Below are positions 1-64,000 of a stretch of 64,000 nucleotides of DNA, one piece after another. A program made the translations under genes and the position numbers. Every line of letters starts with the position of its first letter. Within the stretch, counting starts at the first letter, position 1. Source of the DNA: Chondrosia reniformis (taxonomy: Eukaryota > Porifera > Demospongiae > Chondrillida > Chondrillidae); the NCBI GenBank assembly GCA_947172415.1, contig OX359192.1:4590501-4654500 (forward strand), read 5' to 3'. The notes beneath the pieces are model-generated. The model was given only the letters and a program-made list of their open reading frames with translations. It was not told the DNA's origin and did not search any database.

Positions 1-40
1 ACAAACAACTATTACTACAACTAGTACATACAACTAGTAC
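1..40 (-). repeat. 13-bp satellite, ACA orientation (end of a block)
   Basis: Units of ACATACAACTAGT run into the orientation switch that follows. The block continues beyond the left edge of the window. Confidence 0.8.
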
Positions 41-105
41 ATACAAAATGTATGTAATATATCAATGTACTATATACTTGTAGTTCTAGTCTATTGTACT
101 GGTTT
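41..105. repeat. Core A, copy 1 (ACA-to-TTG switch)
   Basis: The satellite changes orientation here. A short inverted centre (ACATAC then GTATGT) is followed by a non-satellite stretch with ATCAATGTACTATATACTT, then TTG units. The same stretch recurs at about 10297, 15571 and 45831, each time at an ACA-to-TTG switch, so it is a conserved module and not an accidental junction. Confidence 0.75.
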
Positions 106-977
106 TATGTACTAGTTGGTTGCACTATTTGTATGTACTAGTTCTATGTGTATGCACTAGTTCTACGTACTAGTTGTTGTACTAGTTTAATGTGCTAGTG
201 GTGTGTTCTAGTTGTATGTACTATTTCCATGTTCTAGTTAGATTAAACTAGTTGTACGTACTAGTTGTATGTACTAGTTGTATATAGTAGTTACATTTTC
301 TATATGTATGTACTATTTGTATATACTAGTTGTATGTACTAGTTTTATGCACTAGTTATATTTACTAGTTGAAGGTACTAGTTGTATGAACTAGTTGTAT
401 GGACCAGTTGTATGTACTAGTTTTGGTAGTAGTTGTATGTACTACTTCAATGCACTAGTTCTGTGTAGTAGTTGAATATAATTCAGTTTGATGTACTAGT
501 ATAGTAGGTGTATATACAAGTTCTATGTGTATGCACTAGTTATATGTACTGGGTCTATGTACCAGTTTTAGGTACTAGCTACATGTACAAGGTGTTTGTA
601 CTAGTTTTGTGAACTAGTTGTATATACCACCTGTATGTACTAGTTGTGTGTACTCGTCACTACTTGTATGTACTAGTTGTATGAACTAGTACTAGTAACA
701 TTTACTAGTTGTAGGTACTAGTTTTTTGTACTAGGACTACTTATGTTTAGTAGTTGTAGGAACAAGAGGTATCTACTGGTTGTATGCACGAATTGTATTC
801 GCTTCTATGGACTAGTGGCATGTACTAGTTTTATGTCCTAGTTGTATGTACTACTTGTAAGAATTTCGTTTATGTATAGTTCTATATGTACATGCTAGTC
901 ATATGTACTAGTTGCATGTACTAGTTATGTCCTAGTTGCCTGTTCTAGTTGTATGTACTAGTTATATATACTATTTC
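106..977 (+). repeat. 13-bp satellite, TTG orientation
   Basis: Degenerate ACTAGTTGTATGT units. The first ~200 bases (with TTGGTTGCACTATTTG) match, unit by unit, the starts of the TTG blocks at 15631 and 45881, so these are copies of a longer parent sequence. No gene is supported here. Confidence 0.9.
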
Positions 978-1020
978 TATGCTATGTCTATGGTGTCTTT
1001 ATTTCACAACTAATTAGGTA

Positions 1021-1502
1021 GTGATATTTACCCCAAAGAACTTATTCTTAAAAAGACAAATACCAGCCCTAAAAAATCCCCCATTTTAGACTTAGATATA
1101 ACCATTACTAACAATCAATTTATCACTGAAGTATATGATAAGCAAGAGGACTTTAACTTTGATATAGTAAACTTCCCCCATTTAGATAGTAATATTCCTA
1201 ATACCCCAGCCTATGGCGTCTTTATTTCACAACTAATTAGGTATTCCAGAATATGTAGTGAGTTCTCCAGTTTTCAGGCTAAAAGTTTGCAGTTATGCAG
1301 TAGGCTTATTAAGCAGGGTTACAAATACTTTAAGCTAAAGTCAACCTTTAAAACCTTCCTATCCCGGCAGCCTCTAGTTAGAATCAAGTATAAGCAAAAA
1401 GTAGCTAGTATGCTTAAGGACTGTCTTGTGTTACCCCATATTGTGTTACCCCACCTCCAAAGAAATGTTACTACTAGAAGACCTAAGGGTAGACTTACGT
1501 AA
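1021..1502 (+). pseudogene. C-terminal fragment of a reverse transcriptase-type protein
   Basis: One open frame runs from about 1023 to the stop at 1500-1502, about 160 codons. Readable landmarks in order are DIYPKELILKKTN, LDLDITITNNQF, VYDKQEDFNFDIVNFPHLDS, AYGVFISQLIRYSRICSEF and LIKQGYKYFKLKSTFKTFL. From memory this block is a conserved C-terminal region of retroelement proteins that are multicopy in cnidarians, molluscs and sponges, lying after the catalytic palm; the catalytic aspartate motifs are not present here. The frame is joined upstream to a misplaced 33-bp copy of its own later sequence (988-1020 repeats 1211-1243), so this copy is 5'-truncated and rearranged. No start codon applies. 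Family assignment to Penelope-like elements is an inference from the ribozyme downstream. Confidence 0.6.
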
Positions 1503-1811: not shown

Positions 1812-1956
1812 AGAAGATGAAAGAAGGGAAAAGAAGGAAGAAAAGACTACTGTATCTTCATCTAAAGCTCTCTTTAGGTTTAGTTCCCCTATAGGCTCTT
1901 TTTACAGAATAGGCATATAGCATGTAGGAAAATGGTATCTTAGATTTTTCATATGC

Positions 1957-2839
1957 ACTAGTTGTATGCACTAGTTGTGTGTACTCGTTACTTGTTGCAT
2001 GTACTAGTTGCATTTACGAGTTGTATGAACTAGTGGTAGTTATATTTTTTAGTTATAGGTACTAGTTGTTTGTACTAATAGAATGTATATTTACTAGTTG
2101 TAGGTTGTAGTTGTGGGAACTACTTGTGTGTATTAGATGTATGTACTAGTTACTAATTATATATACTAGTTGTAGTGTTAGGTTAATATACTAGTTGTAT
2201 ATATTACTTGTAAGAAATAGTTGTATGTACTAGTTGTGTATGTATACACTAGTTATATGAACTAGTTGTAGTACTACTTGTCCGTACTAGTTGGATGTAC
2301 TAGATGTATATACTAGTTGTAAGTTCTAGTTGTATGTCCTATTTGTATGTGGTAGTTGTATGTAGTTTGTACTAGTTGTGTGTACTAGTTGTATGTGTCA
2401 GTTGTATGTACTAGATGTATGTAGTCTATATTAGTTGTATGTACTAGTTATATGTACTAGTCATATGTCCTACGGCTAGTTATAAGTACTAGTTGTTTGT
2501 ACTAGTTTTGTTATATGTACTAGTTGTAGGTACTGGTTGTATGTACTAGTTGTGAGTATTAGATGTATGTACTAGGTTTAGTTATAATTACTAGTTGTTG
2601 GGAATAGTTGCCTGTACTAGTAATGTGTAATAGTTGTATGTACCAGTTACTAGTTGTATGGTCTAGTTGTATTGACTAGTTTTGGGTACCAGTTTTATGT
2701 ACTTGCTGTTTGTACAAGTTTTATGTTCTAGTTGTATGTACTAGTTGTATAAAATAGTTTTAAGAACTATATGTATGTAATATTTGTACGTACTAGTTGT
2801 ATGGACTAGTTGTATGTACTAGTAGTATGTACTTGTTGT
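1957..2839 (+). repeat. 13-bp satellite, TTG orientation
   Basis: Continuation of the block interrupted by the insertion at 978-1956. Units become better conserved near the switch at 2840. Nothing else seen. Confidence 0.9.
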
Positions 2840-2960
2840 ACAGTGAAAAAATGTATGTCAAAACAACATCAAATGGTTAAAATAAAAGCTAATTTTATTG
2901 TTTAAAATGACATACTAAAAATTAAAACAACAAGCTAGTGGTTAAAACAACCATACATGC
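2840..2960 (+). repeat. Core B, copy 1 (TTG-to-ACA switch)
   Basis: Non-satellite module of about 120 bp with the landmarks ATGTCAAAACAACATC, GGTTAAAATAAAAGC and GACATACTAAAAATTAAAAC. It lies exactly where the satellite flips from TTG to ACA. Same orientation at 20811 and 62461; reverse orientation at 11880 and 43988. Confidence 0.8.
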
Positions 2961-5900
2961 AACAACTAGTTCTTATAACTAGAACTTATACCAAGTACAT
3001 ACAACTAGTACATATAACTAGTACTTACTCATGGAACTAGTACATACCACCAGTACATAGATATATATAGTACTACAACTACATTCTACAAGTAGGATAT
3101 ACTAGTAGTTTATACAACTACTACAAACAACTAGTACATACAACTAATTTTACAACTAGTACATAGAACTAGAGTATGCAACTAGTAGATTCAACCAGTA
3201 CATACAATTAGTACATACAACTAGCACATACACCTAGTACATACTACCAGTCATACAAGTGGTACATACAACTAATACATAAAACTAGTATATTTAATTA
3301 CTACTTCAACTACTACATACACCGAGTACATGCAACTAGTACATACAACAAGTATTACAACTAGTTCATACAACTAGTACATTAAATTACTACTTCAATT
3401 ACTACTTACAACTAGGACATACAAGTAGTGCAGACAAATAGTATTACAACTAGTAAATAGAACTGGAGAATACAAGTGGTAGATACATCTAGGACATACA
3501 ACTAGTACATACAACTAGTACATGCAACTAGTGTTAAAACAGGTTGATAAAAGTAGTGCAAACAACTAGTATTATTACTAGTATATTAACCTAGAGTATA
3601 TGGTTAGTACATACTACTAGTAAATATAACTAATACTTACAACTAGTACATGTAACTACTATATATAATTGTTATATAAAACTAGGTCATATAACTTGTT
3701 TTACATAGAACTAGTGCATATAACTAGTACATTCAACTGGTTCATACAACTAGTACATACAACTAGTACATATAACTATAACATCCAACTAGTATAATAG
3801 CTACTACATAGAACTGGTGCATACAACTAGTAAATACAAAGAGTACATACAACTAGTCCATACAACCAGCACAAATAACTAATATGTATAACTAGAAAAC
3901 TAGTCAATAAAACTAATACTAGTACATACAACTAGTACACACCACTAGCACTTTACCAATAGTAAATATAACTAGTACTAGTACATACAACTAGTACAAC
4001 TAACTAGCTCATACTACTAGTTCATACAACTAGTACATACAACTTCTACATACAAAAATTACCACTTCAACTACTACAGACAACTTGAACACACAACCAG
4101 GACATACAACTAGTACATATGACTAAAGCATATAATTTATGCATACAATTAGAACATTCAACTAGTACGTACAAATAGAAACTAGTACATCCAACTTGTA
4201 CATGCAACTAGTATGTGCAACTAGTACAATCAACTAGTATCATACAACTAGTGTGTACAAATAGAACCTATACCTAGTAAATATAACTACTATTAGTAAA
4301 AACAACTAGAATATACAACTAGTACATACAACTAGGACATACAACTAGGACATACAACTTGTACACATAACTAGTACATACAACTAGTATATTAAATTAC
4401 TACTTCAACTACTACATGCAACTAGTACACGCAACCAGGACATAAAACTAGTACATATGTCTATAGCATATATCTAATACATCCAACTAGGATATCCAAC
4501 TAGTACATACAAATAGTAACTAGTACATACAATCTTGTACAAACTAGTACGTGCAACTAGTAGAATCAACTAGTATCATTCAACAAGTGTGGACAAATAG
4601 TAAATAGAACTACTAATAGTACATACAACTAGAACATACAACTAGTACATACAACTAGTACATACAACTAGTAAATATAACACGTACTAGTGCATAAAAC
4701 TAGTTTATAGAGCTAGTACTTGAAACTAGTAAATGCAACTACTAAATAGAACTAGTACTAGTACACACAACTAGTAGTTACAAGTAATACATACAAGCCA
4801 TACCTGCAACTAGTACATACAACTAGTACATTCAGCTAAAACCTATGACTTATACATACAACCAGAACATACAAGTAATACATGCAAGTAGTACATTCAA
4901 CTAGTACTATAGCTAATACCTACAACTAGTACATACAACTAGTACACACAACTAGTACATACAACTAGTACACACAACCAGGACATAAAACTAGCACATA
5001 TGTCTATAGCATATAACTAATGCATACAAGTAGAACATACAACTAGTACATACAAATAGTAACTAGTACATACAACTTGTACATACAACTATTACATGCA
5101 AGTAGTACAATCAACTAGTATCAACTAGTATCATAAAGCTAGTGTGAACCAATAGTACCTACGCCTAGTAAATATAACTACTAAAAGTATATACAACTAG
5201 AATATACAACCAGTACTTACAACTGGTACATACAATTAGAAAATATAACAAGTACTACTACATATAAATAGTAAAGGTAACATGTAAACTAGTACTTGCA
5301 ACTAGTAATTGCAACTAGTAAATAGAACTAGGACTAGTACACACACAAGAAGTATATACAACTAGTACATACAACTAGTTCATGCAACTAGTTCATACAA
5401 ATAGCACATTCAGCTAGTACCTACAAATAGTACCTACAACTAGTAAATATAACTAGTACTAGTACATGCAACTAGTTAAAATGACTAGTACATACAATGA
5501 GTACATAAAACTAGTACACAAAACTAGTAAATATAACTAGTACTAGTACATACACTTAGTATATACAACTAGTTCATGCACCTAATTTATACAACTAGTA
5601 TATACAACTAGTCCAATGAACTGCTACATACAACTAGTACATGCAATTAGTATTAGAACTAATGCATACAAATAGTTATTACAAAGATTACATACAACTA
5701 GCACATACGACTAGTACATTAAACTAGTAACGAGTACACACAAGGAATACGAACAACTAGTAACTAGTATATAGAACGAGTGCATAGAACTAATACATAC
5801 AACTAGTACTCCAACTAGTACATTGAACTACTTCAAGCAACTAGTACTAACAACTAGTACATACAACCATTGCATACAACTAGTTTATAATTAGTACATA

Positions 5901-6323
5901 TGACTAGTACACATACCTAGTACATACAACCAGAACATACAACCAGTACATACAACTAGTACATAAAACTAGTATATACAACTAGTACATAAAACTAGTA
6001 AATGCAATTATTACGTATAACGAGGACATACAACTAGTAAAGAGTACATACAACGAATACATGCATCTAGTTCATACAGCTAGTACATACAACTAGCCTA
6101 TACAACTGGTACATTCGACTAGTACATGCAATTAGTACATTCAACTATTACTATTGCTAGTAAATAGAACTGGTGGATACAACTAGTAAATACACAGATT
6201 ACTTAAAACTAGTACATACAGCAAGTACATACAACTAGTGCTGAGAAAATACAATGAGTACCTACAACTAGTAAAGAGTACATACAACGAGTATATATAA
6301 CTAGTTGTGTGAACCAACTAGTG
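2961..6323 (-). repeat. 13-bp satellite, ACA orientation
   Basis: About 3.4 kb of degenerate ACATACAACTAGT units with internal higher-order repeats. The stretch near 3500-3780 (landmark TATTAACCTAGAGTATATGG) aligns with 21640-21850 and 62880-63120, showing these blocks are copies of one parent. Open frames here are repeat artefacts. Confidence 0.9.
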
Positions 6324-7025
6324 CATATCAGGGAGTACGGTAGTACTCCCTATGTAGGGATGACAAGGTTTTTTCATTTTCCCCATACATCGGTATAGGA
6401 GATAAATCCCGGAATAGGCCGAAAATCGACAAAACAAGGCTATGTATAGCTAAATATAGAATATACATACTCCAAATAGACCTTAAAGGCAAGCGAATAT
6501 GTCCCTCTGGCGAAATAAGAACCTTTAAAAATTCCCATTTTCATCTTCTTCATATTCTTATTATTATTATTCTTCTTTGTCAGCCATAACTAAAAAAGTA
6601 TATCAGCTTTTGGACTAATTGTTAAACGAAACTATTGCAAATTTTGAGAGCTGTATTCCTTTGCAGAAGCCAGAGCGATAGCGTTATTATTGAGTATGAC
6701 GGTTTCATGGCCCCAAAGTCAAGACCTCAATAAATTCGCCATTTTAGTGACGTTATATTCAGTCGAAGATAGCAAAATCAAAATGGGTTTAAATATAATC
6801 GAATTCTAGCTTATGCTCCATAAAAAGTAAAGAAACTAGAGAAAACTAAAAATTTTCTACAAAAATAGTGAAGAATGCATGAATCCTACAAGCAAGGGTG
6901 TTGTATGATCCATGCATATGTAGCTAATGCTTCACTGTGTAGCATCCTTTTCTTGTTTATGTGCTTTTTGTCCCATCCCAACATCTTCACTATCTTTGTA
7001 GAAAATTTTTATTTTTCTCTAGTAA
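6324..7025 (+). mobile_element. Unclassified ~0.7-kb element with hairpin end and palindromic end (copy 1)
   Basis: Left end has the hairpin GGGAGTAC-GGTA-GTACTCCC; right end is a shortened copy of a palindromic module ending TTTTTCTCTAGT. A second copy lies inverted at 10337-10973, about 80% similar by eye over most of its length. Copy 1 has an extra segment at about 6680-6830 and a deletion in one arm of its palindrome. No coding frame is evident, so it would be non-autonomous. Superfamily unknown; no clear target duplication. Confidence 0.6.
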
Positions 7026-10000
7026 TTAGTATATACAGCTAGTACATATAATTAGTTCTACAGCTAGTACATAGAACTGGTGTCTAAAACTAGTAAATTC
7101 AAATAGTTACATACAACTAGTTAATACAACTAGAACATAAAAATAGTAACAATGACATACAACGAGTACATGATATTATATTATAACATGTACATTCAAG
7201 GAGTACAAACAACTACTTCCTAACGTTATTACATACATCTAGTACATACAATTAGTACAGAATACTAGTATATACAACTAGAACCTACCCCTAGTAAATA
7301 AAACTATTCTAGTACATAAAACTATATAGTTCAAATAACTAGTACATACAACTAGGTCATACAATTAGTATATACAACTAGTACATACAATTAGTACATA
7401 TGACTACTACATTCAATTAGAACCTACAACTACTACAAACAACTAGTACCTGAAACAGGTAAATATAACTAGAACTAGTACATACAACTAGTTCAAACAA
7501 GTAATACATAAAACGTGTACATACAACTAGTAACAAGTTCATACAATGGGTAGATACTACAAGTTCATACAACTAGTTCATACAACTAATATATACAACT
7601 AATACATACAACCGGTACATAAAACTAGTACATGCAACTCGTACATACAACTAGAACATACAAATAGTAACGACTACATACAACGACTACATACAACGAC
7701 TACATGCAATTAGTAACATGTACATACAAGGAGTACATACAAATAGTTCAAAAAACTAGTGCATACAACTATACTAAAATTATACATGGAGTAGTACATA
7801 CAACTAGTGCTCTTTCTAGTACAGAAAATATGTGCAAACAACTTGAAAACTTGATTATACAACTAATATATGCAACTAGTATATATAACTAGTCCATATA
7901 ACTAGTACATACAATTAGAACATGCAACTAATACATTCGACTATTAACTAGTACATCCCAATAATACATAAAATAATACCTATAACAAGAATAAAAAACT
8001 AGTACAAACAACTAGTACATAAAACTATTATGAACCACTAGTTCCTCCAACTAGTAAATATAACTAGTATTAGTATATACAAGTAGTAAATACAACTAGT
8101 ATATACAACTAGTACAAAAAACTAGTAAATATAACTAGTACTACAACTAGTATGTTGAACTAGTTCAAGCAACTAGTACCTACAACTAGTTCATAATTAG
8201 TACATATGACAAGCCCACATACCTAGGACTTACAGCTAGTACCTAAAGCTAGTACATAAAACAAGTACCTACAACTAGTACATAAAACTAGTTCATGCTG
8301 CTAGTCCATTCAACTAGTACATACACCTAGTACATACACCTAGTACATACAACTAGTAGATACCACTGCTACCTACAACTATATAGTACATAGAATGAGT
8401 ACATACAACTAAAACATACAACAAGGTCATTCAACTAGTACAAACAACTATTACCTACAACTAGTAAATATAACTAGTAAATGCTATTTGTTCATACAAC
8501 GAGGAAATATAAGTAGTAACGAGTGAATACAAGGTGTACACACAACTAGTTAGGAGTTCATACAACCAGTACCTGCAACTAGTTCTTAAAACTAGTACAT
8601 ACAACTAATTCATACAACTAGTACATACAACTAGGTCATAAAACTAGTACATACCCTTAGTTCATACAACTAGTACATACAACTAGTACATACAACTAGT
8701 ACATACAACTAATACATACAACTGGTAAATTCAACTAGTACATGCAACTAGTACTTACAACTACTACTACAGCTGGTACATAAAACTTGTACATACAACT
8801 AGTGCATACAACTAGTACATATAAGTAGTTCATACAAATAGTACAAACAACTACCGCATGCAACTTGTACATACAACTAGTACATACAACTAGTACATAC
8901 AAGTAGTAAATATAACTAGTACTTACAATTAGTATACACAACTAGTACAAACAACTAGTACATAAAGCTAGTATGAACAACTAGTACCTACAACTAGTAA
9001 ATAAAATCAGTACTAGTTATTAGCAACTAGAACATAGAACTAGCACATACAACTAGTAAATAAAATGGTATATATTACTAGTACTAGTACATGCAGCTAG
9101 TACATACAACTAGTACATACAATTAGTATATGCAACTAGTTCATTCAACTAGTACCACTGCATAGAATTGGTCCCCAAAACTAGTAAATACCAAGAGTAC
9201 ACACAACTAGTACATAAAACTAGAACATACAACAAGTACATACAACTAGTAAATATAACTAGTACTGGTACTTACAACTAATTCAAAAAACTACTACTTA
9301 AAACTAGTATATACAACTAGTAATGAGTATATACAACGAGTTCTTTCAACATATAACTAGTACATGCAACTAGTACATACAACTAGAACTACAGTTAGTA
9401 CATAGAACTGGTTCATACAATTAGTCAATACAAAGAGTACATACAACTAACAGATAGGCCTAGAACATTCAGCTAGTAACGAGTACATACAACTAGTAAA
9501 GAGTCATTACAAGGAGTACAAAGAACTAGTTCATACAACTTATACATACAACTAGTTAATACAACTAGTCAATACAAGTAGTTCATACTACTGGTCCATA
9601 CAACTAGTTCATACAACTACTACATACAACTAGTACCAACAGCTAGTAAATATAACTTGTACATGCAATTAATACATTCAACAAGGACATACAACTAGTA
9701 ACAAGTAGATGCAACGAGTATGTGCAACTAGTTCATACAGCTAAGTCATACGAATAGCACATTCAACTAGTACATACAACTAGTACCTACATCTAGTAAA
9801 TATAGCTAGTACTAGTACATACAACTAATTCAAACAACCAGTACATACAACTAGTAACGAGTATATATGACGAGTTCATACAACTAGTAATGAGTACATA
9901 CAACGAGTATATACAACTAGTTCATACAACTAGTTCATACAACTACGACATAAACCTAGTACATAAACCTAGTATATTCAACTAGTACATACACCGAGTT

Positions 10001-10296
10001 CATACAACTAGTCCATGCAACTAGTACATACAACTGCTACATACAACTAATACATACAACTAGTAAATGATTAGTACATATCACTAGTACACATATCCAG
10101 TACATACAACTACTAAATACAACTAGGCCATAAAACTAGAACCTCCAACGAGCACATGCAACAAGGACATACAATTAGTACATATAACTAGTACATACAA
10201 CATGTAAATATAACTATTACATACATCTAGTAAATAAAACTAGTACATACAACTAGCACAAACAACTAGTACTACAACTAGTACATACAACTAGTA
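7026..10296 (-). repeat. 13-bp satellite, ACA orientation
   Basis: About 3.3 kb of degenerate ACATACAACTAGT units. Short variant blocks such as AACGAGTACATACAACGAG recur. Apparent open frames (for example 8735-8941 on the minus strand) are repeat translations and not genes. Confidence 0.9.
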
Positions 10297-10336
10297 CATA
10301 CAAGATTTATGTACTATATCAATGTACTATATACTT
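10297..10336. repeat. Core A, copy 2, interrupted by an insertion
   Basis: CATACAAGATTTATGTACTA and the following ATCAATGTACTATATACTT match the other core A copies up to 10336. The expected continuation (TAGTCTAATG) reappears at 10973-10982, on the far side of the element inserted between them. Confidence 0.7.
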
Positions 10337-10580
10337 ACTAGAGGAAAATAAAAATTTTCTACAAAAAAGTGAAGATGTAGGGATGGCATACAAAGCACAG
10401 AAACAAGAAAGGGATGGTACACAGTGAAGCATTAGCTATATATGCATGAATCATACAATACCCTTGCTTGAAGGATTCATGCATAGCTAATGCTTAACTG
10501 TGTAACATCCCTTTCTTGTTTCTGTGCTTTGTGTGCCATCCCTACATCTTCACTTTTTTGTAGAAAATTTTTATTGTTCC
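10337..10580. repeat. Palindromic module (MITE-like) at the element end
   Basis: Arms of about 115 bp are near-perfect inverted copies around a short centre at about 10454-10470. Landmarks are AAAATTTTCTAC, GTGAAGATGTAGGGATGG and GAAGCATTAGCTA, each found inverted on the other side. Transcripts could form a long hairpin. The related module at about 6835-7025 is incomplete on one arm. Confidence 0.75.
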
Positions 10581-10973
10581 CTTGTTTCTGTACTTTTTAT
10601 GGAGTAGAAGCTCAATAATAGTGTTATTGCTCTCGCTTTTACAAGAGAATACAGTTCGGAAAATTTAGAGTATTTTTGCTTAAGAAGTAGTCCGAAGGCC
10701 TATTTCGGCTTTTAGTTAAAGCAGGCAAAAAAGATGAAGAAGATGAAGAAGAAAAAAAGTAAATGGGAGATTTTAAAGTTCGTTCATTTGCCAACGATAC
10801 ACGATTGCTTGCCTTCAAGGCCTATTTACAGCATGGCTGTTCTATATTTAACTCTACATAGTCTCGTTTCAGCGATTTTCAGCCTATTTCGCTCCTATAC
10901 CAATGTATGGGGAAAACAAAACAACCATTACTTTCCCTACATAGAGAGTACTACCGTACTCTCTGATAGGTAT
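10337..10973 (-). mobile_element. Unclassified ~0.64-kb element (copy 2, inside core A)
   Basis: Inverted relative to 6324-7025. It starts with a complete palindromic module and ends with the hairpin AGAGTAC-TACC-GTACTCT. Insertion in core A is shown by the core A sequence on both sides. The A/G-rich frame at 10734-10988 runs out into satellite and is not considered a gene. Confidence 0.6.
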
Positions 10974-51397: not shown

Positions 51398-51403
51398 GTA
51401 AGT

Positions 51404-52118: not shown

Positions 52119-52190
52119 TGGGGCGCCACAGGCACCCCTATATTGTTATTTATATATATGTGTATATCCGGCAAAAAATATAATGTAATA
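52119..52190. repeat. Second Helitron 5'-type end with hairpin (inner)
   Basis: GGGGCGCC-ACA-GGCACCCC followed by TATATTGTTATTTATATATA matches the outer end (47144) and small-element ends. No 3'-type hairpin lies between the two, so two starts share one end at 61556-61621. Confidence 0.65.
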
Positions 52191-52254
52191 TAATATAATG
52201 TAATAAAATATAATGTAATAATGTAATTGAGAAGTATGTAAGAAAATACAATTC

Positions 52255-54075: not shown

Positions 54076-54720
54076 GGGGGTGTGGTCATCACATAGTGAG
54101 TACCTTGTATCCATGGTAACATTAATGCGCATAAATATGCATCACTGTACATTAATCCTTTTCACACTACATATGAATTCGACTCCTCGATACCTAATAG
54201 TGTAAAACAAATAGTATGGAACGTAAAGCCTGATGATACTGTCATACGGTATCATAATTAAAAACGGCGAATATAAATGGTACATACATCCATTCGGTTG
54301 CGCATTTATATGCATAATGTCCCAACGGTTCGGAGTGACAGCAGAGAGTCAGTCTTTGGGGGCAAGCATATGTATACAAGCCCAACAAGAAAGCATTCAA
54401 AGGAACGTTGCTATATACAAACCAAAACTCGCTCAAGACGCAAAACGTCTACAGTGTATATAGCCTAAATGCACAATGAATCTACAATTATCTCGCTATG
54501 CCAAGAATACACATGGAATGTCATAACATACAATCGTTATTATCTATATAATGCTTGCATAACAAAACACTCTATATATACATGATTATCTTGCAAGTTA
54601 TTGTTGGCAAAATGTTTGTTGGTAAGTTGACATAAACAACAAAAATATACTGTACACAATTATAGTATGTCTACTTCGTCTTCACATATTGATTTCTTTC
54701 ATGTCTGTGTATAGAGTATC
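54076..54720. other. Leader region before the Helitron ORFs
   Basis: AT-rich unique sequence that should hold the promoter and 5' leader. Frames at 54233-54468 on both strands overlap one another and lack domains. Confidence 0.4.
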
Positions 54721-55581
54721 ATGAAATTGATTGGAAAGTTCCTTCCAACTGATGGTAAACTGACAATGTGTAGTCATCGCTCCAAAAGATGTAAACATTT
54801 TATGAGACATAACCCCGGTAAGTCATGCACATTGTACACTGTGGTACACTGTTTAGTCCTACAAAGGCCTGCAATTAAAAAAGCAATTGGTCTATTGGCT
54901 GCTGCTACCTTTATATTCTTTGAAATATACACACTTCAAGCTCAACTAGTAGCTAACTGTAAAGACCAACCTAGTGCTTTTGTTCAAATATGCTATGGTA
55001 CTGCTTTGCATAATCCAACACAATACTCTCTCGATGCAAATCAAGAAAACTTAAACCGTTTGGTTTGCCGTGAGTATGCATACATTAATAGACTAAAGAC
55101 GACATATGTTCGCTACCGAAAACGATTGCATACCTTTTTTCTTTATATTTCAAAACGTCGCTTTCATCGACCTTCATGTCTGGCTTTGCTTCTACTGTTA
55201 CTCCTCTTAAGTGGAGATGTTGAAGTCAATCCAGGCCCTACCACCAGTAAAGAAAGGCAGGATAATAAAGAATTGGATGCAGGTTTAATTCAAGATACCT
55301 CCAAAGAAAAACAAAAGCGGGAAGACAGCTATAAACAGTTAATCTCCATAGAGTCTAGTGGTGAACAAAGTATGCAAAGTTATTGCATCTCAATTGGATC
55401 ACCCTTGCCAATTAAAATTGAACAGCAGTACACGACAGACATTGACAAGCACCCACAGGCAAAGAAAGGATTACCAATTAATGAGACAGAAAAACGTGAT
55501 CAGCAGTTAAGCAAAAAAAGGACTTGTCTCGAGCAAGATTCAGGAGTCGGGTGTTGTCAGGAGCAACACATTGATACCTGA
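54721..55581 (+). CDS. Helitron upstream ORF with 2A-like peptide
   Basis: 286 codons from ATG 54721. A basic Cys/His-containing start is followed by a hydrophobic segment (residues 56-75, GLLAAATFIFFEIYTL), a tyrosine/arginine-rich middle, and a leucine run directly before GDVEVNPGP (residues 165-173, bases 55213-55239). That is the D-V/I-E-x-N-P-G-P signature of 2A ribosome-skipping peptides. The C-terminal ~110 residues are polar and charged. The stop overlaps the Rep-helicase frame by 11 bases; that frame lies one base ahead and is open from 55511, just at a run of seven A (55513-55519). One extra A would explain the split, so this may be the N-terminus of the Rep-helicase protein. 2A skipping would release a leader from the downstream protein. 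Skipping itself is unproven here. Confidence 0.75.
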   Translation: MKLIGKFLPTDGKLTMCSHRSKRCKHFMRHNPGKSCTLYTVVHCLVLQRPAIKKAIGLLAAATFIFFEIYTLQAQLVANCKDQPSAFVQICYGTALHNPTQYSLDANQENLNRLVCREYAYINRLKTTYVRYRKRLHTFFLYISKRRFHRPSCLALLLLLLLLSGDVEVNPGPTTSKERQDNKELDAGLIQDTSKEKQKREDSYKQLISIESSGEQSMQSYCISIGSPLPIKIEQQYTTDIDKHPQAKKGLPINETEKRDQQLSKKRTCLEQDSGVGCCQEQHIDT

Positions 55582-58500
55582 CATACCCGTGTCCAAACTC
55601 ATTCAGGACGGAGCATTTCCTGTTCATCAGTTGGAAAGAATTTCCTCAGCACCTGTGAGTGTTTTCAATGGGCCTCAACTGGAGCTAATGGCATTCCCTA
55701 CTTTGTATCCCAATGGAAGAAATGGTTTTGGAACACATAGGAATGCCAAACTTTCTCCCTTGTACTACTTTCAAACCCGTGTCATGAGTAGTGATGCTAG
55801 ATGGGCACGGCATCCATCTTACCTCTTTTGGGCTTGTAATATTGTAGAAGCATACAAGCTGCAAAGTAGCATTTCTATTGCTCTACGTCTGAGGAATCCA
55901 GGAACTCAGAATATGAACACCAATAAAGACAAAGATAAACATGAAGAAAGCAAGGAACATTATCTCACAGCAGGTGATTTGAAGGGATCATCGGCAAAAG
56001 AAAATCCAGATGTAAGTGAAAACTGCCACAGTTTCATGAGGGATATTCGTGGTACTGCAGCCTACTGGCAGTCAGCAAAAATTCATCTGTTCACAATGTT
56101 GCGTTCCCTTGGAACTCCAACATTCTTCATCACATTCAGTGCAGATGACCATCACTGGAAAGATCTCATGGTGGTTTTAGCCAACTGCAGTGGACGGAAC
56201 CTGACTGAGGAGCAGGTGGACCTACTCACTGATGAAGAGAGGAGAGACTTTATGGCCAGTAATCCTGTGGTTACTGCTCGCCATTTTGCACATCGCTTCC
56301 AATGTCTGGTGAAAGAAGTCATTAAAGGTTCAGGAAAGCCAATTGGAGAAGTGATTAATTTCTTCTGGAGAATTGAGTTTCAGTTGCGAGGAACACCACA
56401 TGTTCATTCCTTGTGGTGGATTAAAGATGCTCCAGACTTGGACACCAAGGCAGGCAGCCAATCAGCTCCTGAGTTCATTGATAGGTACATATCCGTTCAA
56501 TTCCCAGATGAGGGCTGTGGAAAGGATGAACTCAGATCAACCATCATTCGGGTCCAGCAGCACAAGCATACTACTACTTGCCAGAAGACATGCAAAAAGA
56601 AGAAAGAATGTCGTTTTGACTTCCCCAGACCTTTGTCGTGTGAAACACGCCTGAAGAACAATAACGATGTAGGAAACAAGTCACGCTTTTACCTTCTTAA
56701 GCGGAACAAAGGGGAAGAAAATATCAATGCTTTCAACATTCATCTGCTCCTTGCATGGAAGGCCAATATGGATATACAGTTAATTGGATCAGTTTATGGT
56801 ACTGCATCGTACATTTGTTCTTACATGTGCAAGGGAGAAAGTGAAGAAGTGAAGAAGGCCATCAGAGATGCTCTCAACACTCTACCTGCTAATGCTTCAA
56901 TTCGCAAAAAACTATCCAAAGTAGGCAATACTATGCTGTCACATCGAGAGCTTAGTGTCCAAGAGGCTGCCTACAGACTTTGCAATTTGCCACTGAAGGA
57001 CTCGACTAGGAAAGTAGTGTTTGTTAACACCGTCCGACCTGAAAAGCGAATACGACTTCACAAGAGCCGATCTGAACTATTTGAACTGGGAGATCATGAC
57101 ACTGCCATCTTTCAACCAGGTTTGTTTGATAGGTATGCTGCAAGGCCAAAGGGAGATGACTTTGAAGAAATGACTCTGGCTTACTTTTCTGTGTGGTATG
57201 ATACTATACCAAGGGAAGACAGTCGTAAAAAAGATGACTATACAGGACCTGGACGGCGATCGCAACCTCGATACAAGTTGCAAGATAATATGGGTTGGAT
57301 CAAGTTAAGGACCAAACGGGCATGTCTACGTACTCCGGTGATGACGCCCTCAAGCCATGGTGATGACTACTACTATAGTCTCATGTTACTGTACATTCCA
57401 TGGAGGCAAGAAAAGGCTGACTTGCTCCAAAACCATGAAACCGCCATGGCTGCTTTCATTGCTCGTGAAAGTGAACTTAAAGTCCTCAATGCTCAACATG
57501 AAGCATTTGCAGAGGAAGTACAGCGAGCAGTGCAACAGCTACAGGCTGTAAAGGATGCCGCATACATGGATCTTGTGGCTCCTAATGTGCAACACGGAGA
57601 AAGAGAAGATGCCAAGCATCCAACGGAGGAGGCTGATGGAGGACTGTACAATGGAGATAATTTTATAGAACAAGAGAATATGGAAGACTTGGCAGATGTA
57701 GCACCTACATTGCTGGAGGATTTTGATGCCAGTGGTGCCATCTCTCGATCTCGCCTCACTGAGAAAGCAGTTAGGGAGCTGATTCTGAGCCTAAATGCAA
57801 AACAGAGAGAGGCATTCGAGATTGTTGTCAGGTATATGGCAGAACTACATAAATACCATATGGGAACAGTATCATCTCCTCCAGAATGCTTCCACCTGTT
57901 CATTACAGGTGGGGCTGGAACAGGAAAATCACACTTGATCCATGCCATCAGGGAGCATATTGAAAGATCAGTGCAGGGAAGCAAGGATTTCCATGGATGC
58001 ATGGTCATGGCACCTACAGGAGTGGCTGCTTTTAACATCAATGGACTCACTATTCATCGAGCACTGAGTCTGCAAGTGGAACATGGAAGGTCAGCGCATC
58101 AATTGCATTTGAGTGCTTTGGCTCTCAATGAACTTCGTCGACTTTGGAAAGGAGTTCACACTATCATTGTAGACGAAATCAGCATGGTTTCTTACGAGGT
58201 ACTCGTAGCTGTTCATCAAAAGTTTTGCGAGATCTTTGCTACGGATGACATTTTTGGAGGAGTTAATGTTATTGCTGTTGGGGATTTGTACCAACTGTCC
58301 CCTGTAAATGGACATTATATATTCAGCAGTGCAAAGGTGCAATCAAGGAGGCTTGCATCCCATTTGTGGAAAGACTTCTTCAGTATGATTGAATTGGAAG
58401 ATAACATACGACAGCACAATGATCAGTCTTTCTCATCACTGCTGAATAGAATTCGAATAGGAGACCACACTCAGGAAGACATTGCCATCTTAGCAACTCG

Positions 58501-59209
58501 CAAGACATCCAACAATCAAGTGGATCTTTTGTCATCACCATTTTGCAATGCACTTAGACTGTTCCCTCGGGTTTCTGACTGTGACTTCTATAATGACCAG
58601 GAGCTGCACAAATTGACTTCTGCAACAGTGCAGTTGTTTGAAGCATCACATGTGATTTTGGAGAGTCGCAGATGCACACATGGGGCAGTATCCTATGAGC
58701 ATATACGAGAAGAACTCATTCCGAATGATGACAAAGAGTGTGGTGGCTTACCAAGGCGTTTGAAACTGGCTGTTGGGTCGGAAATTATGTTGAGAAGAAA
58801 CATAAAATGCGGAGATGGACTTGTGAATGGTGCTCGAGGTATCATAGTAGGATTTAAATGGCCAGGAAACGTAAAAAATCAACCAAGCCCAGGTGCACTA
58901 CCTGAGTATGTTCTTATCAAATTTCATGATCCTCGAGTTGGACAACTAAACAAAGTTCCAATTGAAAATGGACACCAGGAAGTGGTGCCAATTGAACCAA
59001 TGTCAGTCAGGTTCTATGGACGACAGGGTACTGTGCTTCAGAGAACACAGTTACCTCTCATTCTTTGTTGGGCTGCTACTCTACACAAGGTTCAAGGTCT
59101 GTCATTAGATGCAGCTGTGCTGGACCTGGGAGAAAAAGTGTTCGAACCAGGGATGGCATATGTGGCCTTGAGTCGGGACTCTAGATGGCGTGGCTCTATC
59201 AAGCTTTGA
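55571..59209 (+). CDS. Helitron Rep-helicase (RepHel)
   Basis: 1212 codons, the replication initiator and helicase that moves Helitrons by rolling-circle-type transposition. N-terminal Helitron-like region (AFPTLYPNGRNGFG, LSPLYYFQTRVMSSDARW). Rep domain: FRGTPHVH-type HUH motif (H277 and H279 in EFQLRGTPHVHSLWW) and two tyrosines in YICSYMCK (Y414, Y418). Pif1-type helicase: GGAGTGKS Walker A (780-787), VDEIS Walker B (D868-E869), GDLYQLSPV, the late NGARGIIVGF motif, HKVQGLSL and YVALSR. All key residues are intact. The start given is the first near-start codon; the frame is really open from 55511 and probably continues the upstream ORF. The 3' end is broken: after YVALSR the conserved continuation (DGVALSSFEPQKVKANKQ) lies in another frame from about 59178, a small indel. 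Confidence 0.95.
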   Translation: MIPDIPVSKLIQDGAFPVHQLERISSAPVSVFNGPQLELMAFPTLYPNGRNGFGTHRNAKLSPLYYFQTRVMSSDARWARHPSYLFWACNIVEAYKLQSSISIALRLRNPGTQNMNTNKDKDKHEESKEHYLTAGDLKGSSAKENPDVSENCHSFMRDIRGTAAYWQSAKIHLFTMLRSLGTPTFFITFSADDHHWKDLMVVLANCSGRNLTEEQVDLLTDEERRDFMASNPVVTARHFAHRFQCLVKEVIKGSGKPIGEVINFFWRIEFQLRGTPHVHSLWWIKDAPDLDTKAGSQSAPEFIDRYISVQFPDEGCGKDELRSTIIRVQQHKHTTTCQKTCKKKKECRFDFPRPLSCETRLKNNNDVGNKSRFYLLKRNKGEENINAFNIHLLLAWKANMDIQLIGSVYGTASYICSYMCKGESEEVKKAIRDALNTLPANASIRKKLSKVGNTMLSHRELSVQEAAYRLCNLPLKDSTRKVVFVNTVRPEKRIRLHKSRSELFELGDHDTAIFQPGLFDRYAARPKGDDFEEMTLAYFSVWYDTIPREDSRKKDDYTGPGRRSQPRYKLQDNMGWIKLRTKRACLRTPVMTPSSHGDDYYYSLMLLYIPWRQEKADLLQNHETAMAAFIARESELKVLNAQHEAFAEEVQRAVQQLQAVKDAAYMDLVAPNVQHGEREDAKHPTEEADGGLYNGDNFIEQENMEDLADVAPTLLEDFDASGAISRSRLTEKAVRELILSLNAKQREAFEIVVRYMAELHKYHMGTVSSPPECFHLFITGGAGTGKSHLIHAIREHIERSVQGSKDFHGCMVMAPTGVAAFNINGLTIHRALSLQVEHGRSAHQLHLSALALNELRRLWKGVHTIIVDEISMVSYEVLVAVHQKFCEIFATDDIFGGVNVIAVGDLYQLSPVNGHYIFSSAKVQSRRLASHLWKDFFSMIELEDNIRQHNDQSFSSLLNRIRIGDHTQEDIAILATRKTSNNQVDLLSSPFCNALRLFPRVSDCDFYNDQELHKLTSATVQLFEASHVILESRRCTHGAVSYEHIREELIPNDDKECGGLPRRLKLAVGSEIMLRRNIKCGDGLVNGARGIIVGFKWPGNVKNQPSPGALPEYVLIKFHDPRVGQLNKVPIENGHQEVVPIEPMSVRFYGRQGTVLQRTQLPLILCWAATLHKVQGLSLDAAVLDLGEKVFEPGMAYVALSRDSRWRGSIKL

Positions 59210-60400
59210 ACCACAGAAGGTCAAGGCTAACAAACAAGTGCATGCAGAAATGGCCAGGTTACGGAAGAGAAGTGGTTCACATGATACATCAGACAATGAG
59301 TCACAAACATCCCACCTCTTGGTGCACAGTATTTCCTCTCTATCCAACAAACCCAATCAACCAATGACCAGTTCCGTTCCTGTCGTTGCTACTCCAGTAC
59401 CCTCAGTGCAGAGGAATTCTTCTCCACCCATCCAAACCAACTCACCAACCAAATCTGCTCCAGGTACACACATGCCCTCGGTGCAGAATAATTCTTCTTT
59501 AATAATCCAACCCCAGACCCCAATCATTTCTGTTCCCCATGTTGCTTCACCAGTACTGTCACTTCAAGAAGAGTTAGAAACTATGGTGAACTGTGAAAAT
59601 CCGGCTACTGATTTGATGAGCAATTGGGCAAAGTGTCATGAGGGTGATATTACAGCTGCCTTGATAGAAATAAATCAGCCATCCCGTGCAATTCTCAGCA
59701 GCTTCCACAGTACAGATGTTGGCGTGAGGGAAAAATTTTTACCTGCCTTTACATTGTTTTATGTTCCAGTGTACACTACAGGAAGTGGAAACTGCATGTA
59801 CAACATGATTTCATTAACCCTTACTGGAACAGAGCAGTACATGTCTCACTTGAGTTGCTGACTGCCTACAGCCTCATTACACATCGAGAACATATGTTTG
59901 AGGTCATTCAACCAACTGCAAGAATTCTTCTACCCTTAAATGCACTAAGTGCAGCTTCAGTTTTTAAGGAAGCAGAAATTCAGTGGTTGGACCTCGTTCG
60001 CAGTTCACTACAAGATGGATCCTGGGGGAATCAATTTCATTTACACGCCCTCTCTATTGCTTTGGAGAGGTCCATTTGCCTGTATGGAGTTATGCGTAAC
60101 AGAACGGTTCAACATCAAGGCAGGCAGTTGCAATGCATTGATGTGACTACTTCAGCAGCTGAATTACAGAACCTCTTTGATGCTAAAGACAAGCGACTGA
60201 ACAACAGCATTATTTACCATCCAAATGTGGAAAAATATTCCCCACTTTTAGGATTCTTTGATGCAAGCCACTTTACTGCTATTTTACCAACAAATGCATC
60301 ACGTAACTCCACAGAATTTTCTCCATTCACCACCTTTGCCTCCCTCTGGAGTGTGTGTTTCAATAACTATCTAACTATTTATGACAATCTTTGGAAGTGA
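59178..60400 (+). pseudogene. Helitron C-terminal region with OTU cysteine protease
   Basis: The frame from 59178 continues the helicase C-terminus, then a Ser/Thr/Pro-rich linker (about 59330-59570), then an OTU-like domain: the catalytic Cys block YTTGSGNCMYNMISLTLTGTE (C at 59793-59795) and, after a one-base deletion near 59850, LLTAYSLITHREHMFEVIQP, WGNQFHLHALSIALERSICL and the catalytic His block FDASHFTAILP (H at 60269-60271). OTU proteases normally cleave ubiquitin and are known as part of Helentron-group proteins, where their job is unclear. With breaks at 59177 and 59850 this part is not made from the RepHel frame unless recoding occurs. It ends at a stop at 60398-60400. Confidence 0.85.
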
Positions 60401-61555
60401 CATACGTTAATGGTACATGCAAATAGGCTAGCTGCCAAAGCGTGATGTATATGGCAGTGGGCGGAAGACCTTTTATCATGACATTGATATTGGCAAAAGA
60501 GAGAGACCCAGATTGTGTTAGACTAGCATTTTGAGCAGTCATATTTTTAAGAATCTCACTTAACTTTAATTGACATTTAACAAAATAAACTTTTTGTTTA
60601 GTTTCTATTACAAGTAGCATAATGATGATCCAGTGATGACTATATATACATACATTAGTATTACAAGGTCAACAGAACAAGTAATTTACAAAATTGCATG
60701 TAACAAATCTCCCTATTATAATATAATGAATAATTGAAACTCGTTGTTTTGGATTACGTACACAACTATGAATTTAACATTTTACCGTTATAATAATTAA
60801 TAGACGATCGTACAACAAAAAAGAAGAGATATTTCGGTATGAATTTAAATTTTACATAATAGATAGGTATACACATAGTTAATGCGTTGGTATAATTATT
60901 TATTTAATCACTATATGTATAATTGTATAATTATATGTGTTATTGTATATTATATGTGTGTTTATATATATTTGTGTTTATATAGTATATGTGTAATTAT
61001 ATTGTATATATTTGCACATGCATATGCATGTCTTTTACACATTTTCATGTGACTGATACATGCCTTTGTAAAGTATGTGTGTAGTAGCTGACACTCTCCT
61101 GCACAATTTAGCAGGATAATAGGTGTTAGAGCTACTACTTATAACAGACTAAGTAAGATCTGTTCATGAATGTATTAGCATTCTACAAACTTAGACATAA
61201 TGTCTTCATGTTTGTGCAACTTTTGCACACTATATTAGTGAGTACTTTATACTCACTTTGTCCAACTAACTGTGTTTGGTTACAGTACATTGATTATAAT
61301 TTTACAGTTTCCTTTAATGCAGGCACTTCCAAGACATGCACTAAACATGTCACACTGGCTACCACAGCCATCTGTACATCCTCCATTACATCCAGGGCTG
61401 GTAACATGCTTACGGGCATCCACTTGCCCCTCGAAAGCAAACACCTCACTGTGGAATGCATTCATGCCTACCTCAGCGTGGTGCATCCTGGGATCTCTCT
61501 AGCTATTAGGGTGCTGCTAAATGGCATGAGTAAAGGTGACATCTATGAAATACGC
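60401..61555. other. Helitron 3' non-coding region, with a possible captured exon
   Basis: Mostly AT-rich with TA/TG-rich runs (60890-61020). From about 61323 the sequence becomes G+C-richer after TTCCTTTAATGCAG, a good splice acceptor, and stays open for about 60 codons (from ALPRHALNMSHWLPQPS) to a stop near 61504. This may be a captured terminal exon, but no family is recognised. Confidence 0.35.
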
Positions 61556-61621
61556 CAAGTAGTTCGAGTTTGCATAGGGGCGCCAGGCGCCCCCACGAGT
61601 TTTTTAAACTCGAACTACTTG
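61556..61621. repeat. Helitron 3'-type end, 66-bp terminal hairpin
   Basis: Outer arms CAAGTAGTTCGAGTTT and AAACTCGAACTACTTG enclose an inner GC-rich inverted repeat (GGGGCGCC-A-GGCGCCCC). The small elements at 32295 and 38695 end the same way with different inner sequence. Much larger than the usual Helitron end hairpin. Confidence 0.78.
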
Positions 61622-62460
61622 TTTGTACTAGTATTAGTTATATTTACTAGTTGTAGGTACTAATTGTATGTTCTAGTTGTCCGTATTAGATGTATGTAAA
61701 GGGTACTTCTTGTATGTACTAGGTGTATATACTAGTTGTATGTACTAATTGTTTATACTAGTTCTATGTACAAGTTGTAGAATTAGTTGATGTACTAGTT
61801 GTTTATACTAGCTCTATGTACTAGTTGGAGTACTAGTTTTATGTACTTGTTATATTTACTACTTGTAAGAACAAGTTGTATGTACTACTTCTACATGTAT
61901 ATACTAGTTATATGTACTAATTGAATGTACAAGGTATATGAACTAGTTATTTGTCTGAGTTATTTATTAGTTGTATGTACTACTTCTTTGCATTAGTTCT
62001 ATGTTGTAGTTGTAGTAATAGTTGTATGTTCTAGTTGTATATACAAGATGTATGTACTAGTTGTATGTAGTAGTTGTGTGTAGTAGTTGGATATACTAAG
62101 TGCATGTATTAGTTGTATGTACCAGTTACCAGTTGTGTGTACTAGTTGTATGTACTAGTTGTGTGTACTAGTTGTATGTACTATTTTTACGTGCTATTTG
62201 TATGTACTAGTAGTAGTTATATTTACAAGTTGTATGTACCAATTACTAGTTGTATGGTCTAGTTCTATATACTAGTTTTATGTACTAACTGTAGGTACTA
62301 GTTGTAATGACTAGTTGTATGTACTAGTTCTATGAACTAGGTAAATGTACTCGTTAATAGTTGTATGTACTAGTTGTATGTATTTCTTGTAGGCACTAGT
62401 TTTATGTACTAGTTGTATGTACCAGTTGTATGTACTAGTTGTATATACTAGTTGTAGGAT
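61622..62460 (+). repeat. 13-bp satellite, TTG orientation
   Basis: The first 40 bases repeat the satellite left of the large element. No gene. Confidence 0.9.
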
Positions 62461-62575
62461 GTTGTTGTAAAATAATACGTCAAGACAACATCATATGGTT
62501 AAAATAACAGCTAATAATATTTGACAAACCAAAAATTAAAACAACTAGCTAGTGGTTATAACAACCAAACCAGTC
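62461..62575 (+). repeat. Core B, copy 5
   Basis: Same orientation as copies 1 and 3: ACGTCAAGACAACATCATAT, GGTTAAAATAACAGC and CCAAAAATTAAAACAACTAG. A short deletion shortens the central AT-rich part. Confidence 0.8.
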
Positions 62576-64000
62576 ACAACTAGTACATATTACTAGTACC
62601 TAAAACTGGTACATACAACTAGCACATACAACAAGTACTACAATTAGTTCATACAGCTAGTCCATACAACTAGTGCATACTACCAGCTCATACAACTAGA
62701 ACATACAACTAGGGCATACAACTAGTATATCAAATTACTACTTCAACTACTACATACAACTAGGGCATAAAACTAGTACATACAACTAGTATAACAACTA
62801 GTAAATAGACCTAGAGCATACAACTAGTAGATACCTCTACAACATAAAACTAGTACATGCAACTAGTACATGCAACTAATGCTACCACTAGATGATACAA
62901 CTAGTACAAACAGCTAGTATTATAACTTGTATATTAACCGATTTTATATGGCTAGTACAAACTATTAGTACATATAACTAGTACTTACAACTAGTACATA
63001 CAACTACTACATATAATTGTTATATACAACTAGTTCATATAACTTGTATTTACACATAGAACTAGTACATATAATTAGTACATTCAACTGGTACACATAA
63101 CTAGTACATACAACTAGTACATACTACTTTTACCTAAAACGAATACCTTCAACTAGTAAATATACTACTACTAGTACATACAACTAGTACATACAACTAG
63201 TATATAGAACTTGTACATGCAACTTGTACATACAACTGGTCCTATAGCTAGAACATAGAACTGGTGCATACAACAAAGAAAATACAAAGAGTACATACAA
63301 CTAGTACATGCAACTAGTACATAAAACTAGAAAGTTTAACTAGTACATATAACTAGTACTTACAACTAGAACATGCAACTAGTACATTCAACTAGTTACT
63401 AGTACATCCAACTAGTACATGCAACTACTTCTTACTACTAACTATACACAATTAGTTCATGCCACTGGTACATGCAACTAGTAAATATAATTAGTCCTAT
63501 AACATACAACTTGTACATAAAACTAGTTAATAAAAGTAGTACCCACAACTAGTACATTCAACTAGTAACTAGTACATACAACTATATAGTTCCTATAACT
63601 AGGACCTAAAACTAGTTTATAAATATAACTAGTACTAGTACATACAACTACTTCATACAACTATACATACTACTGATTCATACAACTAGTACATACAACT
63701 AGGATATACAACTAGTACATAATATTAGTATATACAACTGGTACAAACAACTAATACATGGAAATAGTACATACAGCTAGTACTACAGCTAGTTCATAGA
63801 ACTAATACATACAACTAGTACATACAACTAGTAAATATTAAAAGTACTAGTACATACAACTAATTCATACACCTAGTTCATACTACTAGTTCATACACCT
63901 AGTACATAGAACGGGTACATACAACCAGTATATAAAATTACTACCTCAACTACTACATACATCTAGTACATATAACTAGTACATGCAATTAGTAATGAGT
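62576..64000 (-). repeat. 13-bp satellite, ACA orientation
   Basis: Aligns over its whole length with 20933-23140 plus 27422-27700, but without the two insertions found there, so it preserves their empty sites (about 62870 and 63420-63440). Runs off the right edge. Confidence 0.9.

Follow-up and report, generated by a model that had tools for sequence, protein, structure and literature searches.

A zigzag satellite domain and its recurring turning-point cores on chromosome 4 of the sponge Chondrosia reniformis

The window analysed here is a stretch of 64,000 bp, C4:4,590,501-4,654,500, on chromosome 4 (C4; 8,954,400 bp long) of the sponge Chondrosia reniformis, whose assembled genome holds 117,379,552 bases in 15 contigs. 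A satellite with a 13-bp monomer, ACTAGTACATACA, fills 29,155 of the 64,000 bases of the window and 135,115 of the 264,000 bases of the wider domain examined around it (C4:4,530,501-4,794,500). It lies in blocks of <0.1 to 7.7 kb that run in one of two directions, ACA or TTG, and these blocks form arms that meet at turning points. The published genome note lists 14 chromosomes and a mitochondrion and gives chromosome 4 as 8.96 Mb; the accessible part of its text has no match for 'satellite' or 'centromer' (PMC12181767). Literature searches, narrow-phrase ones among them, brought up in the part of their results that was covered no earlier description of the satellite or of such a domain; in one broad search none of the papers covered named Chondrosia.

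Turning points of the satellite

The turns are known here from the assembled sequence, and an automated count placed ten of them in the window, five from TTG to ACA and five from ACA to TTG. A preliminary description had reported at least nine turns, with one conserved core (A) at four ACA-to-TTG changes and another (B) at all five TTG-to-ACA changes, and this was borne out. Core B occupies each of the five TTG-to-ACA turns (2842/2953, 11922/12006, 20814/20891, 43999/44412 and 62460/62536). Core A is present at four of the five turns in the other direction: three were recognized by the automated test (palindromes 39-55, 15570-15586 and 45832-45848), and the fourth, which that test missed, consists of the palindrome and the first monomers (10296-10336) followed by an insertion. 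The fifth turn (43612/43617) lacks core A.

The same count gave 32 turns in the 264-kb domain, with core B at 14 of the 16 TTG-to-ACA turns and core A at 11 of the 16 ACA-to-TTG turns, i.e. a core at 25 of the 32. By eye, core A at turns 4,555,170 and 4,600,806 is interrupted by one common insertion at the identical base; the other ACA-to-TTG turns without A are 4,582,879, 4,634,117 and 4,727,674. Two TTG-to-ACA turns are without a full B, one carrying a B fragment of ~30 bp (4,573,714; by eye) and the other a 1.1 kb insertion (4,709,091). Counted from the cores, 14 of the 15 B copies on chromosome 4 lie at a turn, the remaining one (4,752,753) having ACA satellite on its inside and ~1.8 kb of non-satellite DNA on its outside. 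The corresponding figure for core A is 11 of 12, the twelfth (4,715,093) being a partial A that adjoins the insertion common to the truncated A (A') turns. The features of the window, in window coordinates, are as follows.

1-1031, no strand assigned: ACA arm (1-52), turn A1 with palindrome ACATACA-AAA-TGTATGT (39-55) and TTG arm (42-1031)
1949-2842, minus strand: TTG arm leading into the first B turn
2841-2962, plus strand: core B1, the terminal ~115 bp of a putative CACTG transposon, with CAGTG at 2841 toward the TTG arm and the inner end toward the ACA arm
2953-10306, plus strand: ACA arm with an insertion at 6331-7022
10296-10336, plus strand: truncated core A (A'), palindrome ACATACA-AGA-TTTATGT (10296-10312), cut by an insertion at 10337-10977
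10978-11922, minus strand: TTG arm
11892-12007, minus strand: core B2 in reverse orientation, a separate subfamily (support 93/96)
12006-15583, plus strand: ACA arm with an interruption at 13011-15408
15570-15690, plus strand: core A turn, palindrome ACATACA-AGA-TGTATGT (15570-15586) and the first conserved TTG monomers
15572-20814, minus strand: TTG arm with an interruption at 16520-19383 (Penelope-like element)
20820-20921, plus strand: core B1
20891-43617, plus strand: long ACA arm with insertions at 21393-21626, 23141-27419, 30926-38123, 38696-39213 and 42214-43256
43590-43640, no strand assigned: ACA-to-TTG turn without core A, at another short palindrome, ACAACTA-TTGAAC-TAGTTGT
43612-43999, minus strand: TTG arm
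44008-44419, minus strand: core B in reverse orientation, split by an insertion at 44066-44374 and left out of the B tree
44412-45840, plus strand: ACA arm
45832-45950, plus strand: core A turn, palindrome ACATAC-TGG-ATGTATGT (45832-45848), with a sister at C4:4,698,806-4,698,903 (minus strand)
45834-62460, minus strand: TTG arm with an interruption at 47150-61611 (Helitron and other repeats)
62476-62566, plus strand: core B1 with an 8-bp deletion that is also found in the inverted sister C4:4,684,288-4,684,378
62536-63995, plus strand: ACA arm that continues beyond the window in the direction of the palindrome centre (C4 ~4,667,345)

Nature of the two cores

Core A is marked by a near-perfect palindrome with a spacer of 2-4 nt, ACATACA-(2 to 4 nt)-TGTATGT, and the remainder of it is made of satellite monomers, the variants of which the 11 turns compared have in common with one another on either side. 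The notion of two separate unique modules was thus not upheld for core A, which satellite monomers cover; only B is non-satellite. A genome search for core A gave 76 matches, 21 on chromosome 4 and 55 elsewhere at 72-84% identity (40 of 1143 candidates scored), and nine of the 21 were weaker partial matches adjoining listed A turns that were left out of the count. As a unique module elsewhere in the genome core A was rejected, since the seven matches inspected off chromosome 4 lay in ordinary array and none at a turn, the closest being ~0.3 kb from a turn on chromosome 13. By eye, the turn without A at 43612 and two turns found on chromosomes 3 and 13 also sit at short self-complementary pieces. 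Because all of these, like the A turns, fall on such pieces, fold-back there would be a plausible cause of this kind of turn.

The search for core B, in which as in all our genome-wide repeat searches the counts are lower bounds, gave at least 20 matches: 16 on chromosome 4 at 4.556-4.753 Mb (15 copies, one of them split), two on chromosome 11 and two on chromosome 3. Among the matches listed, the TTG-B-ACA arrangement is confined to one stretch of ~200 kb on chromosome 4. The four copies on chromosomes 3 and 11 are arranged differently, the TTG array leading into B and B into a common body that is 95-99% identical across loci (91% in one alignment that included the array). All four carry the left end CACTGAAAAAA. 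The right end TTTTTTCAGTG was found in one copy on chromosome 3, the sole one read to its end, and in the other two copies that were fetched far enough it is replaced or interrupted by different insertions. Three of the four loci were fetched on both sides, and at all three the satellite runs in the identical direction on either flank. Based on the order TTG-B-body, the CACTG ends and the same-direction satellite afterwards, we take core B to be a CACTA-like transposon's left end, the transposon being inserted in a one-way satellite array.

The coding region of this element matches Transposase_21 (E 1.8e-4; 21.3 bits, cut-off 28.6) and DUF4218 (E 1.6e-3; 18.7 bits, cut-off 27) below the cut-offs. 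A genome-wide family search returned 55 matches that include a relative on chromosome 7, 53% identical and just over the cut-off at 29.4 bits; the chromosome 3 and 11 copies were not among the 55. On chromosome 4 the B copies align to the transposon from about its terminus to GTCA, after which ACA monomers follow, in a common order over at least 70 aligned bp, and the letters of this inner junction, GTCACAACT, are kept in 10 of the 14 aligned copies. Within the 264 kb the transposon body has no match (E 1e-15) except B itself and two repeats nested in or beside the body, and the right end has none beyond pieces of 14-29 bp. An origin of the satellite from subterminal repeats of the transposon was also considered, by comparing the 13-mers of the ends with the monomer at 3 mismatches against 100 dinucleotide shuffles. 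The observed number was reached by 10 of 100 shuffles for the left end and 46 of 100 for the right end, and by 1 of 100 for a control stretch inside the element, which scored higher; because this control beat its own shuffles better than the ends did, such an origin is unsupported.

These data bear on the suggestion, made in the preliminary description, that the window is made up of a large foldback-type element in several copies. Here the arms would be terminal inverted repeats (TIRs) made of tandem repeats, as in FB, TU and Tetris, with B or A as the middle and several copies lying side by side. Inverted arms do frame B at 14 of the 16 TTG-to-ACA turns, and elements whose TIR tandem repeats form satellites exist, as the accessible part of the Tetris report describes (PMC4079207). 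However, outside the single ~200 kb stretch none of the four B copies has an inverted arm; off chromosome 4, B forms one end of a TIR transposon, and the arrays lie beyond the CACTG and CAGTG termini of this transposon, running in the same direction at three of three loci; both ends were read at one of them. Moreover, among the matches listed B is not dispersed beyond chromosome 4 and the satellite of chromosomes 3 and 11, no target-site duplication was seen, and the two arms of a single A turn are no more similar to each other than random arms (see below). A foldback element is thus not supported, and we regard it as very unlikely. At the only two-ended copy the flanks read GTA/TCC, by eye without a duplication, and two extra bases relative to the monomer register there would fit a mutated 2-bp duplication.

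Relatedness of the copies and the large palindrome

For core A, we compared insertion-free arms of 250 bp (nine left and nine right arms of the 11 turns), with random comparisons scored in whichever of the 13 phases fitted best. Between different A turns, right arms scored 0.516 per base and left arms 0.450 (36 pairs each), as against 0.419 for an A arm with a random arm and 0.411 for two random arms. The two arms of one A turn scored 0.404 (n=8), no higher than the random value of 0.411, and a fresh inverted duplication as the source of both arms of a turn was rejected on this ground. At core B, where 400-bp arms with insertions included were used, the inner side scored 0.438 versus 0.389 for random arms and the outer side 0.341, a figure that has no matching control. 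The earlier statement that the arms behind equivalent cores can be aligned with one another as copies that have diverged stands for A.

The same result speaks to the possibility that the turns are false joins or chimeric reads with a missed adapter, tandem and inverted repeats together being a classic setting for misassembly. A missed-adapter read would leave near-identical arms, whereas the arms of one turn are no closer than random, and the junctions are met repeatedly, in copies that have diverged. There is no N in the 264 kb, and according to the accessible part of the genome note the HiFi assembly has a quality value of 69.8 and rests on 10.31 Gb in 0.80 million reads, ~12.9 kb long on average (PMC12181767). 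We consider an artefact extremely unlikely.

Trees were built from 11 A copies and 14 B copies, without the split B copy at 4,634,508-4,634,919; pairwise identities were 67-94% for A and 68-91% for B. The three reverse-orientation B copies of the left half (B2) form a clade apart from the other 11 (93/96). As these three are a subfamily of their own, flipping of B in place by recombination between arms is not needed in that half and was set aside; the reverse-orientation copies of the right half group with B1. An insertion that bears a long hairpin sits at the identical base of three A' turns (window 10337-10977, C4:4555170-4555946 and C4:4715162-4715944) and is a good marker for shared descent. 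A second repeat family adjoins this insertion. The similarity between arms of different A turns, the common A' insertion and the B2 clade together argue for copying by descent.

Along 4.555-4.667 Mb, the order of cores agrees by eye with about five copies, less some losses, of a unit of four arms, A'-TTG-B2-ACA-A-TTG-B1-ACA, the tandem period being taken from this order; the closest tandem pair (A 4606070/4590539) is 94% identical. The arrangement comes closest to a higher-order satellite repeat whose units contain inversions. The higher-order feature is present both in the A arms of different units (0.516 versus 0.419 for random) and in the separation of B1 from B2.

On a larger scale, ~135 kb of the domain form a decayed palindrome centred near C4:4,667,345, with 4.667-4.727 Mb as an inverted copy of 4.593-4.667 Mb. 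Three pairs of sister cores (support 100/99) face each other across the centre, B 4652976+/4684288-, B 4593352+/4726574- and A 4636332+/4698903-, the sisters being 90-94% identical. Long inverted matches follow in order, such as 4,662,731-4,666,049 with 4,673,881-4,670,567 (97.9%) and 4,655,066-4,658,836 with 4,682,703-4,678,935 (94.2%). Restricting the comparison to satellite gave 44 best pairs, 21 inverted and 23 direct; those spanning 4,667,345 were 20 inverted and 6 direct. Twelve of the 20 inverted pairs form a collinear chain, a length reached in 1 of 20,000 permutations (mean 6.6). The remaining direct pairs are mostly neighbours in one arm or copies within one half, and some of the long matches, direct ones included, are copies of inserted elements and not of satellite. 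Within ~6 kb of the centre the two halves are 95-98% identical, and by the far ends (~60-75 kb) the figure has dropped to 82-87%; such a gradient suggests either that there were several events or that conversion acted close to the centre. An organised chromosomal domain with repeated palindromes, the other possibility raised in the preliminary description, is supported by these data through both the inverted-arm unit and the ~135 kb palindrome.

Several further sequences lie within the window. The Penelope-like element at 16520-19383 has matches in neighbouring open reading frames (ORFs) to RVT_1 (E 1.3e-5, below the cut-off) and GIY-YIG (E 1.3e-4, just over it). The Helitron at 54715-60400 contains a Helitron_like_N domain (3.5e-30) and a PIF1 helicase domain (8.5e-26), and the ORF preceding it contains GDVEVNPGP, which we take to be a 2A-like motif. 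An element of ~235 bp occurs twice (1716-1948 and 21391-21627) with a CTGATGA...GAAAC pattern resembling a hammerhead ribozyme core; an Rfam search of the window returned nothing for these two copies, and a longer copy sits in a reverse-transcriptase-like element on chromosome 11. A histone 3' untranslated region stem-loop was found at 50196-50242 on the minus strand (Rfam 35.4, gathering score 34), and by eye none of the seven ORFs of at least 60 aa at 49600-52100 is histone-like. Further tandem arrays are a 329-bp unit in four copies (48288-49549) and a 31-bp unit in about 57 (52256-54053). The long hairpin of 232 bp at 47485-47716 is likely a miniature inverted-repeat element; it has below-cut-off Rfam matches to microRNA families, and such families were rejected for the window, their scores being far under the curated ones.

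Genome-wide setting, proposed history and known systems

Among the matches listed, the satellite lies mid-chromosome on at least 13 of the 14 chromosomes, with none on chromosome 14; 35 of 36 representative places fall at 0.30-0.60 of chromosome length, the places being picked by hand and six of the lengths taken from a rounded table. Given this position on 13 of 14 chromosomes, the satellite is probably pericentromeric, and a centromere role of the domain is possible. Uniform satellite copies at C3:7,003,512-7,003,624 lie away from the mid block, at 0.74 of chromosome 3, and are possibly a second satellite block. A 26-mer counted 34,478 times in the genome and 510 times in the 264 kb, with its 135 kb of satellite, scales roughly to several Mb of satellite in total.

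The zigzag of chromosome 4 looks unusual. In ~80 kb read on chromosomes 1, 3, 5, 8, 11, 12 and 13, containing ~48 kb of satellite, there were two turns (C3:4,157,957 and C13 near 2,744,850), neither with B, as against 32 in 135 kb on chromosome 4; this sample is small and centred on A-like, B or satellite matches. Satellite matches on both strands of chromosomes 5, 9, 10, 12 and 13 indicate direction changes at larger distances. The preliminary description had held that cores found mostly outside turns would speak against it: on chromosome 4 they are mostly at turns, whereas elsewhere all four B copies and all seven inspected A-like matches lie off a turn.

In fission yeast, the centromere has a central core with inverted flanks, and A and B might likewise be functional modules that selection keeps at the turns, perhaps as components of a centromere core with a palindromic layout. 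The mid-chromosome position, the ~135 kb palindrome and the presence of cores at 25 of 32 turns are in keeping with this. However, the satellite read on other chromosomes has two turns in ~48 kb and no B at either, arms and cores have drifted, and the core has been lost at several turns, making selected modules quite unlikely. A related and more speculative picture, to which we give a small chance, is that the domain is a functioning (peri)centromere with palindromic structure in an early-branching animal. The inverted satellite arms would recombine and undergo mutual conversion, most strongly near the centre, where identity is highest; the domain would be shaped by this exchange, and a transposon end would have been recruited as the spacer of each B turn.

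We think instead that the flips are probably a few old rearrangement junctions in a pericentromeric-type satellite, and that the flipped blocks were then multiplied by descent. Each core would recur at turns because it belongs to a copied junction, and would not itself steer switching. The history would start with a CACTG-ended transposon entering a TTG array, as is seen on chromosomes 3 and 11 and presumed for chromosome 4. A break ~115 bp inside this transposon, joined to satellite of the opposite direction, would have produced the B turn, probably in one event given how widely the inner junction letters are kept. Alternatively, the transposon or a single end of it could have made the B turn by aberrant transposition, a reaction of one end with a neighbouring copy through which adjacent DNA may be inverted and duplicated. 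The left terminus does align to one side of the B turn, and beyond pieces of 14-29 bp the intact right end has no match in the 264 kb. Nevertheless, the two directions are joined on the inner side of B, where a transposase cut is not expected, and it is simpler to suppose that the inserted element was broken internally and the ends then joined; transposase action at this step is accordingly unlikely.

In the history of copied rearrangement junctions that we favour, the A turn would have arisen when the satellite folded back or was inverted at a short self-complementary stretch of its monomer; here the junction is observed and the mechanism proposed. The unit A'-TTG-B2-ACA-A-TTG-B1-ACA would then have been copied in tandem about five times with losses and have drifted, a unit and route that we read from the core order of observed related copies. 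Subsequently ~60-75 kb of array would have been duplicated inversely, giving the ~135 kb palindrome to which the collinear inverted pairs and sister cores point. Other transposons entered the domain afterwards.

Several observations weigh against this history. No target-site duplication of the transposon was found, and its terminus facing TTG is worn on chromosome 4, where CAGTG is kept in 5 of 14 copies and CACTG in 0 of 14. Weak branches dominate the two trees, in which one of eight and two of 11 branches are strongly supported. Eight of the 20 inverted pairs fall off the collinear chain, and one plain duplication would not give the outward fall in identity. Palindrome sisters (90-94%) are no closer than the best tandem pair (94%), and A 4606070 and 4710496, which should be sisters, reach only 80% identity over 320 bp, with 92% in the neighbouring 1.3 kb. 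Finally, we infer the order of the second to fifth steps.

The usual picture of a satellite is a tandem array that runs in one direction. The domain on chromosome 4 would keep a readable record of array folding and copying at three levels, those of the monomer, the four-arm unit and the large palindrome, and one type of junction in the history of the satellite is tagged by the end of a transposon. Reconstructing an order of events is normally hard in satellite DNA and could be attempted here because the cores are recognisable tags. The domain also supplies a candidate pericentromeric satellite for a sponge.

Parallels with known systems are partial. The chromosome 3 and 11 element shares with CACTA/EnSpm transposons its CACTG...CAGTG ends and a Transposase_21- and DUF4218-like coding region; it differs in its weak profile scores and its four near-identical copies, and on chromosome 4 only the worn left end is kept, as core B. 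Human alpha satellite higher-order repeats have in common with the domain a short monomer, tandem-copied units of diverged monomers, a mid-chromosome position and transposon insertions, whereas the monomer here is 13 bp, the unit has inversions of its own (four arms, two junction types) and a large inverted duplication is added. Fission yeast centromeres and large chromosomal palindromes also have inverted repeats about a centre and identity that is highest centrally; the arms here are decayed (82-98%), belong to one chromosome so far and are known from sequence alone. The closest published link found between an inverted-repeat transposon and a satellite is Tetris and the TIR-220 satellite of Drosophila virilis, where, as far as the accessible part of the report goes, a DNA transposon with inverted ends is likewise tied to a heterochromatic satellite. 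In Tetris, however, the repeats lie inside the TIRs and the target duplications are 8-10 bp (PMC4079207), whereas in Chondrosia the satellite lies outside the CACTG ends.

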